Below, piece after piece: positions 1,983 to 11,093 of a stretch of 33,060 nt of DNA. The notes beneath the pieces were generated by a model. That model saw only the letters and a program-made list of their open reading frames with translations, ran no database searches and was not told the DNA's origin. The DNA is taken from the NCBI RefSeq assembly GCF_012912105.1, contig NZ_QMEA01000070.1, positions 1 to 33,060 of the forward strand, written 5' to 3'. The DNA comes from Brasilonema sp. UFV-L1 (GTDB lineage Bacteria; Cyanobacteriota; Cyanobacteriia; Cyanobacteriales; Nostocaceae). A program made the position numbers and the translations under genes. Numbering within the stretch: the first letter of the stretch is position 1; the number at the start of each line of letters is the position of its first letter.

Positions 1983-2123
1983 CTAGATTTTGAGTGCGAT
2001 CTGACGAATGAGTTTGACATTTTCCTGACGAGAAGTCAGGATATTCTTGGCTCCAGGAGTCCACTGAACTTGGACAAGCTTGTAGTATTGAAGCTTAGGG
2101 AGTGTCAAAAATTGCTCCCATAC
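1983..2123 (-). pseudogene. Possible gene-end remnant (about 46 codons)
   Basis: Reading the reverse strand between the response regulator and glmU gives an open frame with coding-like composition. It contains [20 protein letters not shown] and later ILTSRQENVKLIRQIALKI, then a TAG stop. There is no start codon in frame after the upstream stop, so if real it is a truncated gene end. The family is not recognised. It could equally be a chance frame. Confidence 0.2.
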
Positions 2124-9091: not shown

Positions 9092-9121
9092 TTTCACCTT
9101 AGACCCTTGACACTTTATAAT
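9092..9121 (+). promoter_or_regulatory. Possible promoter for the tRNA-like RNA / Ro60 unit
   Basis: A perfect TATAAT lies at 9116-9121. The -35 position holds only a weak TTTCAC-like hexamer near 9092-9097. A TTGACA at 9108-9113 overlaps the -10 region and is too close to serve as its -35. Transcription from here would run through the decayed tRNA-like half at 9160 and the intact RNA at 9334. No comparable box lies between 9200 and 9334. Confidence 0.35.
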
Positions 9122-9159
9122 ACACATACTACATTAGTGAGATGAGCAGATGTTCACAA

Positions 9160-9189
9160 AGCGGATAGCTAAATTGATAGAGCACCTAC
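9160..9189 (+). other. Decayed copy of the 5' half of the tRNA-like Y RNA
   Basis: These 30 bases match 9334-9363 at 24 positions, including TAGAGCACCTA of the D arm and the start of the anticodon stem. One D-stem pair is broken (GCTA against GAGC), and no T arm or matching 3' acceptor strand follows. The next 100 bases contain other hairpin-forming sequence, for example ACGTTATGCACATGACGT near 9236-9253. It is most likely a truncated duplicate of the RNA at 9334, although an old tRNA fragment is possible. Confidence 0.55.
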
Positions 9190-9289
9190 CTGGCCTCTCA
9201 GGGGTAATTCTCAAAAGTCTGTAACGACCAAATTACGTTATGCACATGACGTCCCTTTTGTACAGTGCGTAAGTCCTAGTTTCTTTTCA

Positions 9290-9329: not shown

Positions 9330-9333
9330 CTTG

Positions 9334-9457
9334 TGGCGGGTAGCTCAGTTGGTAGAGCACCTATATCCTTATTCACCCCTTGCCTGAAAAGGACGAAGAA
9401 TGAGGGTTATCGTTTTCAGAACGGGATGTCGCAGGTTCAAATCCTGCTCCGCCACCT
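9334..9457 (+). ncRNA. tRNA-mimicking Y RNA candidate upstream of Ro60
   Basis: The RNA folds as a tRNA. The acceptor stem TGGCGGG (9334-9340) pairs with TCCGCCA (9448-9454). TA is followed by D stem GCTC/GAGC with loop AGTTGGTA (9343-9358). A 4-of-5 anticodon stem pairs 9360-9364 with 9421-9425. A 5-nt variable region follows, then T stem GCAGG/CCTGC with loop TTCAAAT (9431-9447). The anticodon loop is replaced by about 56 nt. Within it CTGAAAA (9384-9390) pairs with TTTTCAG (9413-9419), then a GGA bulge, then CGA/TCG (9394-9396 with 9410-9412). The resulting GGACGAAG resembles the Ro-binding motif of Y RNAs. The insert is far too short for a group I intron. The Ro60 start codon lies 35 nt after the 3' end. 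Exact ends, and whether the 5' end is made by RNase P, are inferred. Confidence 0.8.
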
Positions 9458-9491
9458 TTGATTTTTGCCTGCAAAGGCTGGGAGTAGACAA

Positions 9492-11093
9492 ATGAACTAT
9501 AAATTCTTCACTCAAAAAAAGACAGCCACACCCCAGACTCAACCGATTCCAGGAAGAGAATCGCAAATGATTCAAGGACGTTCTAGTGGTTGGATGTTTG
9601 ATGCTGGTCTTTGGAAGATGCTACAGCGTTGTTTACTCATTGGCACGGCAAAAAGCACTTACTATGCGCTTAAAAATGAATTGACAGAAGATTTTGTTGA
9701 GGTGACCAGACAGGCGATCGCTAAAAATCCTGAGCGAGTCGCACAAGCAATCCTTTATGCTAGCGATGGACGCGCCATTAACAACAGTGCGCCTATTCTT
9801 GCGCTGGTTCTACTGTCGATGGGTGAAGCGCCAGAAGCCAAAAAAGCATTTGCTGAAATCTTCCCGCAAGTTGTCCGCACAGGGAGTCATTTTTACGAAT
9901 GGCTGAACTACACCAAGTCTCTACGAGGATTTGGTAAAGTTGTGCGCGAAGCTGGAAAAAATTGGTTTTTACGGGAAGATGTGAAGGGTTTAGCTTACCA
10001 GTTGCTCAAGTACCAGCAACGTTATGACTTCTCCCACCGAGATGCTTTGCGGTTGTTCCACGTCAAACCACCGACACAAGAGCATCAACAACTGTTTGAG
10101 TGGGTTGTCAAAGGATGGGAAATCTTGCCAACAGAAATCCCCTCTGCGGCGTTAGCACAGATTTGGTGGTATGAGTGGCTCAAGCGCAACCCAGATCAAA
10201 CTCACGAAGCCATTGTCCAAGGACACTTAACCCATGAAATGGCTGCACCCGTGGGCAAGATGGATAAATCTGCTTGGCAGTTGCTGTTTAACGAAATGCC
10301 AATTGGTGCATTGTTGCGTAACTTAGGTTCACTGACTGAAATAGGAGTTTTAACATCTGATGAACTTGTCAACTTGCAGCGAGTTGAAGCGGTTCTCAAC
10401 AACAAAGAACATTTACGTAAAAGTCGCATTCACCCAATTGATGTTTTAAAAGCACTCAAAACATATCAATCTGGTGGCAAACTAGGACGCAGCAAAAAGA
10501 CTTGGAACCCAGTTCACAAAATAGTGGATATTCTCGAAAAGGCAGTTGAACTGTCTTTTGATGTCGTCGAACCCACAGGCAAAGTGTTCATGCACGCTGT
10601 TGACGTCTCTGGTTCTATGGGATGGCCAATTGCGGATATGGGACTAACTTGTTGTGAAGTCGCTGCAACAATGGCACTAGTCACAGCAAAAGCAGAGAAA
10701 AGCTATATGATTCGTGGTTTTTCTAGTCAATTTTACGACTTGGGTATCACCGCCAGAGATACTTTTCGCTCAGCGGTTCACAAAGCGAGTGACAAAAACT
10801 TTGGTGGAACAGATGCATCTGTTGCTTACGAGTGGATGATTAGGAAAAAGTATAAGGCAGATGTCATCTGCTTTTGGACTGACAGTGAATCGTGGGCAGG
10901 TTACAAGCATCCAAGTCAAGCATTAGCAGAGTATCGCAACAAGGTAAATCCCAATATTAAAGCAGTGTACATCACACTTGCACCTTACCAGATTACGTTG
11001 GTAGATCCGAATGATCCACTGTCTTGGGATTTAGGCGGTTTTGATCCAGGAACGCCTCGCATTATTCAGATGCTGGCTACAGGTGAGTTGTAA
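9492..11093 (+). CDS. rsr: Ro60/Rsr orthologue: TROVE domain plus vWA domain RNA-binding protein
   Basis: A 533-residue protein with the Ro60 layout. An alpha-helical HEAT-like TROVE domain (about 25-350) contains conserved segments such as ILYASDGRAINNSAPILAL, WLNYTKSLRGFGKVVREA and LRNLGSLTEIGVL. A von Willebrand A-like domain (about 363-533) follows, with an intact MIDAS: D371-x-S373-x-S375 (DVSGSMG), T440 (GGTDAS) and D464 (WTDSES). In animals and some bacteria Ro60 binds misfolded RNAs through its central pore and Y RNA on its outer rim; in Deinococcus Rsr works with PNPase and a Y RNA in RNA decay. Start ATG 9492 follows GGGAG at 9480-9484; an in-frame TTG at 9465 is less likely. A Y RNA-like gene immediately upstream supports the assignment. 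Cellular role here is inferred. Confidence 0.93.
   Translation: MNYKFFTQKKTATPQTQPIPGRESQMIQGRSSGWMFDAGLWKMLQRCLLIGTAKSTYYALKNELTEDFVEVTRQAIAKNPERVAQAILYASDGRAINNSAPILALVLLSMGEAPEAKKAFAEIFPQVVRTGSHFYEWLNYTKSLRGFGKVVREAGKNWFLREDVKGLAYQLLKYQQRYDFSHRDALRLFHVKPPTQEHQQLFEWVVKGWEILPTEIPSAALAQIWWYEWLKRNPDQTHEAIVQGHLTHEMAAPVGKMDKSAWQLLFNEMPIGALLRNLGSLTEIGVLTSDELVNLQRVEAVLNNKEHLRKSRIHPIDVLKALKTYQSGGKLGRSKKTWNPVHKIVDILEKAVELSFDVVEPTGKVFMHAVDVSGSMGWPIADMGLTCCEVAATMALVTAKAEKSYMIRGFSSQFYDLGITARDTFRSAVHKASDKNFGGTDASVAYEWMIRKKYKADVICFWTDSESWAGYKHPSQALAEYRNKVNPNIKAVYITLAPYQITLVDPNDPLSWDLGGFDPGTPRIIQMLATGEL

Follow-up and report, generated by a model that had tools for sequence, protein, structure and literature searches.

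Ro60-Y RNA Systems and the Brasilonema Locus

It is known that bacterial Ro60 (Rsr) proteins bind Y RNAs and tether them to nucleases such as PNPase, that bacterial Y RNAs are tRNA mimics, and that some of them, those of the YrlA type, carry tRNA-like modules. Here, we analyze a Ro60 locus of the cyanobacterium Brasilonema sp. UFV-L1, located in a stretch of 33,060 nucleotides (nt) that we call the window (NZ_QMEA01000070.1, contig G000:C305 of an 8.3-Mb genome), to which all coordinates refer unless a locus is named. Just upstream of rsr, the Ro60 gene, and on the same plus strand, positions 9333-9455 encode an RNA that is real and conserved. We consider it very probable that the adjacent Rsr uses this RNA as its partner Y RNA, a complete tRNA with a Ro60-docking hairpin, working along the lines proposed below.

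YrlA also combines a Ro-type stem with a T arm, an acceptor-like stem, and a D arm, and also has rsr as a neighbor; its Rfam model (RF02553) runs from the Ro 5′ strand through the T arm, a closed acceptor hairpin, and the D arm to the Ro 3′ strand. By contrast, the Brasilonema RNA closes the Ro stem and leaves the acceptor open, which amounts to a circular permutation of YrlA, and an anticodon arm is retained. The family of metazoan Y RNAs and the nematode sRNA ceN72-3_ceN74-2 (RF01656) resembles it through Ro-type strands, GGUCCGGAG / CAACUUGACC, and a GGGUUAUC motif that its consensus contains; there, however, the helix is formed at the ends of the RNA, whereas the Brasilonema helix is capped by a small loop and opens into a tRNA at its other end. 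A published benchmark reports that the YrlA crystal structure can be superposed on tRNAs with a circular permutation (PMC11472068).

Other likenesses concern regulation. In Salmonella, the expression of Rsr and its Y RNAs is tied to tRNA damage and RtcB, as we predict here: the rsr-yrlBA-rtcBA operon is activated by RtcR and switched on by broken tRNAs, and YrlA has been proposed as a possible competitive inhibitor of an anticodon nuclease (Hughes et al. 2020; PMC7790460). The candidate regulator of the cyanobacterial locus is, on the contrary, a repressor, TrcR, and rtcB lies elsewhere. In Anabaena sp. PCC 7120, TrcR binds 5′-ATACTACACTTGTATTAC-3′ over the −10 box and represses both a trn array of 26 tRNA genes and rtcB, a repression relieved by translation-targeting antibiotics (PMC10272220). 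That array, like the loci described here, consists of tandem tRNA-like units with a TrcR site over the −10 box; it is described as plasmid tRNA genes, and the excerpts available mention neither a Y RNA nor rsr. We did not find the form described here in the literature on Y RNA, YrlA, and Ro60 in cyanobacteria, tRNA arrays, and permutation, an earlier mention in the main bacterial Y RNA papers being possible.

Fold and Covariation of the RNA

The unit is best modeled as a complete tRNA cloverleaf with a hairpin grafted into its anticodon stem, giving a three-way junction. Its acceptor stem has eight base pairs (bp), since the G at 9333 pairs with the C at 9455 (G-1:C73); the 5′ strand (G-1 to nt 7) occupies 9333-9340 and its partner 9448-9455. 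There follow the D arm (9343-9358), nt 27-28 as the outer part of the anticodon stem (9360-9361, paired with 9424-9425 and supported by covariation in helix 3), a 49-nt hairpin (9362-9410, supported by fold, excision, and covariation), nt 29-31, a 7-nt loop, nt 39-43, a 5-nt variable loop, and the T arm (9431-9447); the D and T arms are both backed by the Rfam tRNA model, the named structure, and covariation. With the hairpin inserted between nt 28 and 29, the anticodon stem is interrupted yet retained: it reads CC + CGU / ACGGG, and the anticodon hairpin (9411-9425) presents the loop UUUCAGA at 9414-9420 with the triplet UCA at 9416-9418. The tip of the insert (9379-9398), CUUGCC-loop-GGACGAAG, has its strands in common with the RF01656 consensus and is the predicted Ro60-binding site. 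The initial annotation of this DNA had correctly located the acceptor stem, the D and T arms, and a bulged stem with GGACGAAG; its acceptor stem was one pair too short, at 7 bp, and the anticodon loop, which it took to be replaced by about 56 nt, is in fact kept.

The Rfam tRNA model gives 43.2 bits over 9334-9455 and leaves a 62-nt stretch unaligned, while ARAGORN, run on the window, makes a sole call, a distant tRNA-Gly, and misses the RNA. The minimum free energy is −41.2 kcal/mol against −32.5 ± 3.6 for shuffled sequences (z −2.4; 3 of 200 shuffles were as stable or more).

Relatives were taken from a protein search with Rsr, the best 80 of 157 being used as named loci (81 with the window). 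An alignment, A1, was made from 47 of 78 representatives from related rsr loci, most of them of standard length, and these 47 units, the window unit included, served to build a covariance model, R1. This model gives the RNA 134.5 bits, and the next-best place in the window genome is a tRNA-sized match with 49.6. In A1, the share of paired cells is 93.4%, and both sides have changed in 22 of 38 pairs (13.9 in shuffles), among them 2 of the 10 outer insert-stem pairs and 3 of the 6 insert-tip pairs. For 123 units from 39 sources, an alignment that favors R1 since its sequences were fitted to the model, the values are 94.3% of cells and 34 of 38 pairs (24.8 in shuffles), with both-side changes in 9 of the 10 outer insert-stem pairs, 3 of the 6 tip pairs, and all 5 anticodon-stem pairs. 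Covariation of the insert stem, on which the initial annotation had made its case depend, is, thus, present.

Linkage to rsr and Tandem Arrays

The rsr gene (9492-11093, plus strand) encodes a protein of 533 amino acids with Pfam TROVE and vWA_Ro60 domains, and its ATG at 9492 lies 36 nt 3′ of the RNA end. In the best segment of a protein search, it is 94% identical to rsr of Brasilonema sp. CT11. Rsr matches the PDB chains 2nvo (E 4.7e-71) and 1yvp (E 7.8e-68), which we take to be Rsr from Deinococcus and Ro60 from Xenopus, along nearly its whole length; the alignment to these chains shows an intact DxSxS motif, in agreement with the TROVE-vWA gene with intact MIDAS announced by the initial annotation, and K170, R174, and H187, presumably Y-RNA contacts, are all conserved relative to 1yvp.

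Among 197 related genomes, R1 at E <= 5e-10 finds units in 68 of the 71 that are TROVE-positive and in 1 of the 126 that are TROVE-negative; the nominal Fisher P of 5e-48 is not a true probability, as the genomes are related. The threshold was set after seeing the scores (at 1e-9, the TROVE-negative G029 would also count), and weak units may be missed, because the wide searches used stricter filters and scored few candidates per genome (17 in this set, 12 in the phylum draw described next). Of the three TROVE genomes missed, two have rsr frames of 83 (G033) and 294 residues (G035) without a nearby unit, and the third, G089, has a full-size frame and no unit; the TROVE-negative exception, G109, has a TrcR-type promoter and three units, fused to an rsr remnant with the vWA domain alone. 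A draw of 292 genomes across the phylum, overlapping the first set, contains 31 with TROVE; 24 genomes have R1 matches at 1e-9, all of them TROVE-positive, against none of the 261 others, and the seven TROVE genomes without R1 are G033, G283, G210, G212, G220, G226, and G228. The unit, thus, both adjoins rsr and co-occurs with it, as a Y RNA gene should, and the linkage that the initial annotation proposed to check with a covariance model is borne out.

The picture of a locus with one Y RNA proved incomplete, since many relatives have a tandem array of units with differing anticodon triplets. With E <= 1e-7 as the limit, R1 has 274 matches, spread over the window and all but one of the 80 other named loci and all on the rsr strand; they reach about −2.9 kb from rsr, and some lie downstream of it. 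The window, L003, L071, L072, and L076 have a single unit by R1 at this threshold, and likewise one core each. On pAQ7 of Picosynechococcus sp. PCC 7002, R1 has three matches upstream of rsr. In the window, a second, decayed tRNA-like unit with a recognizable D-arm half lies at 9158-9259 on the plus strand (R1 8.4 bits, E 0.027, with filters off and 341 bases searched); it aligns with an upstream unit of Scytonema sp. RU_4_4 (L058).

Further units were noticed along the way. Y-insert units occur away from the main rsr in G080:C168 (L170) and G104:C17 (L171), an rsr-like fragment seeming by eye to follow in L171. Several Nostoc loci have a further unit at about +1680 from the rsr start (e.g., L013 4627-4773), seemingly without a D arm, in which the acceptor strand GGCGGGT leads straight into the Y hairpin. 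Some Nostocales units near rsr (L014, L022, and L059) carry a small palindromic T-loop insert (e.g., CCCTACGGGAAGCAAGCTACA) resembling a tiny mobile repeat. As for viruses, Ro60 relatives of the window protein are encoded in 346 phage records, the names of which point mostly to phages of Mycobacterium (195) and Streptomyces (116); cyanophage carriage was rejected on an exact-motif scan of viral contigs that gave 0 and would miss divergent copies.

tRNA Character and Anticodons of the Units

The 81 loci yielded 231 core matches, of which 190 have a parsed tRNA body and 172 passed the length filters. ARAGORN calls none of these 172 units intact and none when shuffled, 4 when the cut is placed 6 nt off, and 145 once the insert is removed; its anticodon is the parsed triplet in 123 of 126 insert-removed units. 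The expectation that a tRNA finder would overlook the RNA, thus, holds for ARAGORN, and the complete cloverleaf of a functional tRNA appears solely after in-silico removal of the insert.

A clean 7-nt anticodon loop is present in 134 of the 172 units, with U33 in 121 and a purine at position 37 in 124 of them, while the entropy at positions 34-36 comes close to 2 bits (28 triplets). The rsr-proximal units display 22 triplets in 58, and the same tRNA body occurs with different anticodons, so that a conserved anticodon matching the body is not found. For a rate test, 46 of the 58 proximal loci were usable, as 12 frames did not parse. Position 33 shows zero differences in 219 binned orthologous same-stem proximal pairs, and position 34 differs most often. 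In the 13 disjoint pairs, the triplet differs 9 times, where the 4-fold sites of rsr would predict 5.7 (P 0.11), and it is, thus, not demonstrably faster than neutral; positive selection on it, suggested by all same-stem pairs, is not borne out by these disjoint pairs and was rejected. The anticodon triplet is unconstrained among orthologous proximal units and changes at about the rate of 4-fold sites, unlike what is expected of a decoding tRNA.

At the other end of the molecule, the 8-bp acceptor with G-1:C73 is found in 134 of the 172 units. NCCA is encoded in 79 of the 106 units more than 200 nt from rsr versus 1 of the 66 within 200 nt upstream of it; the window unit has no encoded CCA. 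Maturation by RNase P is plausible.

The Insert as a Probable Y Module

The RF01656 consensus reads GGUCCGGaGucgaUGGGUUAUC ... CAACUUGACCG, and the cyanobacterial insert reads CTTGCC-loop-GGNCGAAG (or GACG)-GAGGGTTATC. The strands GGCCGRAG-N5-GGGUUAUC are common to the insert and to RF01656-like RNAs found beside the rsr of G228, and the insert carries them joined at the opposite end. In G228, the divergent rsr is preceded by two short Y-like RNAs of the metazoan type (L177, 4031-4096 and 4171-4236, minus strand); they read GGGCCGGAG-N5-GGGTTATC and score 37.4 and 31.3 bits against RF01656, whose gathering threshold is 38. The Ro-type strands and GGGUUAUC motif seen in the RF01656 consensus and in the L177 RNAs are, thus, present in the insert. 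The pattern CGAAG-GGGTTATC occurs once in the window, with 0.01 expected; the window has GGACGAAG in place of GGCCGAAG, and many units have GACG for GAAG. One motif count gave 0, its pattern (TGGGTTATC or GGGGTTATC) being too strict for cores that read GAGGGTTATC or TTAGGGTTATC, and was not used. Human Y RNAs carry GGUCCGAAG/CUUGACC, in agreement with the insert. One has to note that the Ro helix is not made from the RNA's own 5′ and 3′ ends, as in other Y RNAs: a loop closes it inside, and the ends form the acceptor. Judging from these conserved strands, the insert is probably a Ro60-docking hairpin.

Leader Hairpin and Promoter

Between the RNA and the rsr start codon, a leader hairpin (9464-9484, plus strand), UUUGCC-UGCAAA-GGCUGGGAG, resembles the Ro tip and contains GGGAG, similar to a ribosome-binding site. 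Out of 81 loci, 78 leaders were parsed, and 77 of them have TTG(C/T)(C/T)-loop-(G/A)G-N-N-G before the start codon, where N-N is CC in 53, CT in 21, and AC in 3; the background is 707 of 16200 random 42-nt stretches and 453 of 8612 ATGs of the same loci, and the related loci are not independent. The likeness leads us to predict a feedback in which free Rsr would bind the leader and keep translation off until Y RNA is present.

Upstream of the arrays, a promoter TTGACA-17-TACATT with ATACTACA is conserved. In the window, it lies at 9107-9135 (plus strand), and ATACTACA at 9126-9133 is identical to bases 1-8 of the TrcR site as published; this predicted site overlaps the −10 box, as in the TrcR regulon. 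Among the 77 loci with at least 200 nt upstream (window counted), 56 have the 8-mer in either orientation and 55 have the −35 box plus a site with at most one mismatch. The density of the 8-mer is 64 in 35.0 kb upstream (1.83/kb) versus 27 in 543.8 kb elsewhere (0.050/kb). A search of the window genome with the extended site returned 7 matches at 6 places with at most 2 mismatches (1 for the reversed-pattern control). Sites with one mismatch each lie just upstream of rtcB and before a small gene, in the latter case at the distance of the published footprint; the small gene, ribbon-helix-helix-like by eye and with no Pfam family named, would be trcR. The rtcB of this genome is split, several hundred bases separating its two frames (G000:C271:4548-6102, L157). 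A second TTGAC-N-ATACTACA match of the window (2081-2108, minus strand) has no obvious gene just downstream and may be due to chance.

Circular Permutation Relative to YrlA

The YrlA model has no match in the window (E up to 5) or in its genome (E up to 1e-3), and membership of the YrlA family was rejected on these grounds. Among cyanobacterial arrays, the model scores highest over two units of L075, where its 40.5 bits stay below the gathering threshold of 69 bits. The comparison with YrlA family models suggested by the initial annotation, thus, failed as a family assignment, and the RNA looks rather like a circularly permuted isomer of YrlA, in which a Ro stem is linked to the T and D arms of a tRNA-like body in permuted order. 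Of five loci compared with Rfam, the four multi-unit ones give YrlA at 31-40 bits, always across two neighboring units, and the single-unit L003 gives none; matches that span unit boundaries mean that the parts of an array can be read in two registers. The window, L003, L071, L072, and L076, with a single unit each, allow no YrlA register across two intact units, which leaves the window just the open-acceptor register. Caution is needed here, as partial YrlA matches of 28 bits also occur across two ordinary tRNA genes in an outgroup array, because a T arm followed by a D arm is half of the YrlA pattern; the matches in Y arrays are full length.

A third strand order was observed upstream of rsr in at least 11 of the 81 loci (L005, L010, L011, L013, L015, L040, L051, L057, L058, L059, and L065): the tip strands come first, the outer stem strands are exchanged, and GAGGGTTATC-loop-CCCTTG follows. 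The expected tip hairpin was not clearly formed in the folds of two such units, so that this third isomer is defined by its strand order. The decayed unit of the window aligns with a unit of this type.

Among the outgroups, G230 (L176) has rsr followed by a same-strand array of 23 tRNAs called by ARAGORN, with two R1-type insert units inside it (63.2 and 47.7 bits). Ordinary tRNAs also lie near the divergent rsr of G283 (L179, 13), G210 (L180, 5), and G226 (L181, 3). YrlA-type matches near rsr in L176 (G230) and L181 (G226), of 38.4 and 42.7 bits, indicate that permuted forms occur in outgroups too. Our data suggest that Y-bearing tRNAs may have arisen within tRNA arrays. Many array tRNAs of L181 (182-1488) and L180 (1800-2330) have a repeated T-loop insert of about 25 nt (GGTTGCTTCGCAATCCGC...GTGCTTCGA). 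In Gordonia phage Cashline (L166, 1140-1415), inspection by eye points to a tandem pair of permuted Y RNAs ahead of a Ro-like gene; one of these RNAs scores 42.2 bits with YrlA, and in each an anticodon-like hairpin with a 7-nt loop seems to be retained after GGTTA.

Proposed Mechanism

Covariation, co-occurrence with rsr, and Ro-type strands strongly support the cognate Y RNA that the initial annotation had proposed for the adjacent Rsr. From the computed fold, insertion site, linkage, motif, promoter, and leader, we infer the following working. The array and rsr would share one promoter, repressed by TrcR and derepressed under translational stress, a control suggested by the conservation of the site. 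tRNA enzymes would release each unit at its acceptor ends, and Rsr would grip the hairpin at the helix CUUGCC/GGCCGAAG, as motif and linkage indicate. The tRNA body would then point away as an effector or tRNA-mimic end and tie Rsr to a nuclease such as PNPase; alternatively, it may occupy tRNA-binding enzymes, including anticodon nucleases. Surplus Rsr is predicted to bind the look-alike hairpin at its own ribosome-binding site, halting its translation.

Several observations weigh against this reading. In the 123-unit alignment, pairing fails in 38 of 115 cells for 29-41 and in 41 of 112 for one pair of the insert; 38 of the 172 units lack a clean 7-nt loop; and the Rfam YrlA model does not match the window RNA. 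A full-size rsr frame occurs with no R1-type unit in G089 and in G283, G210, G212, G226, and G228 (likewise in G220, where the frame is short), and L045, also with a full-size rsr frame, keeps just a T-arm remnant. Conversely, units persist beside split rsr frames in G099 and G111, so that joint loss of rsr and units is not universal. Of the 77 loci, 21 have no exact TrcR 8-mer upstream, and the window promoter keeps the 8-mer without the second half of the extended site. Finally, the PNPase and decoy steps are drawn by analogy from other species.

Alternative Explanations

A different function, compatible with the identity of the RNA as a Y RNA, is that of a decoy: bait tRNAs with exposed, varied anticodon loops would occupy or absorb anticodon nucleases, and Rsr would deliver the cut units for decay. 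We hold this to be possible, at perhaps a chance in four rather than as a favored view. The near-constant U33 and purine 37 flanking nearly random positions 34-36 are what such baits might show, and the TrcR-type promoter element is common to the arrays and rtcB; on the other hand, faster-than-neutral change of the triplet is not apparent in the 13 disjoint pairs, and, to our knowledge, no cognate anticodon nuclease is known for these units. The inhibitor role proposed for YrlA by Hughes et al. points in the same direction as the decoy, and the cyanobacterial form, in which the anticodon loop is intact, would make a better candidate than YrlA for anticodon-nuclease inhibition.

That the RNA is never a separate molecule, being a cis-acting tRNA-like leader of rsr (T-box-like or an attenuator), is improbable. 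Its position 36 nt before rsr in the same orientation would fit, as would the fact that all 274 R1 matches lie on the rsr strand; however, many loci are multi-unit, with units as far as about −2.9 kb, others lie downstream of rsr, units encode CCA, a separate and simpler leader hairpin is present, and two outgroup units sit inside an ordinary tRNA array.

Slightly less credible still is an intron-bearing tRNA, from which the 49-nt hairpin would be cut out and the halves joined (e.g., by RtcB) to give a working tRNA. It would account for the ARAGORN calls and anticodons regained upon exact excision, for the encoded CCA of units more than 200 nt from rsr, and for the TrcR-type site upstream of rtcB in the window genome. 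It was nevertheless rejected, as the anticodon is not conserved: the triplet is unconstrained in rsr-proximal units (UCA in the window) and one body carries different anticodons. The 8-bp acceptor with G-1:C73, an insert that is highly conserved and tracks rsr, and the split rtcB of the window genome also speak against it. A group I intron was set aside on size alone (49 nt).

A decaying tRNA pseudogene or chance insertion, which the decayed neighbor at 9158-9259 and the single intact unit left in the genome might evoke, is hardly conceivable given strong covariation and a structure kept across many genera.

Significance for Ro60 Biology

Preferring, then, the partner Y RNA of Rsr, we see in this mimic an entire tRNA that is not permuted and keeps its anticodon arm. 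It comes in arrays of several versions, and we predict that it is regulated together with genes for tRNA repair and spare tRNAs. More tentatively, and with about the same reserve as for the decoy, cyanobacterial Ro60 loci might be a tRNA-guarding system, in which a stress-induced array of tRNA mimics with varied anticodon loops, each leashed to Ro60, would draw off anticodon nucleases or sort broken tRNAs, and classical YrlA would be a circularly permuted descendant of such tandem units. This is consistent with the full-length YrlA matches that cross unit boundaries in the arrays examined and with the two units in the 23-tRNA array beside an outgroup rsr. These complete tRNA mimics form a class that ARAGORN does not call and for which a covariance model is now supplied. 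The locus provides a new testable link between Ro60 and tRNA damage, and, in culturable cyanobacteria such as Picosynechococcus sp. PCC 7002 and Chlorogloeopsis fritschii PCC 6912 (L006), makes both the dealings of Ro60 with tRNA and the origin of the permuted YrlA form accessible to tests.

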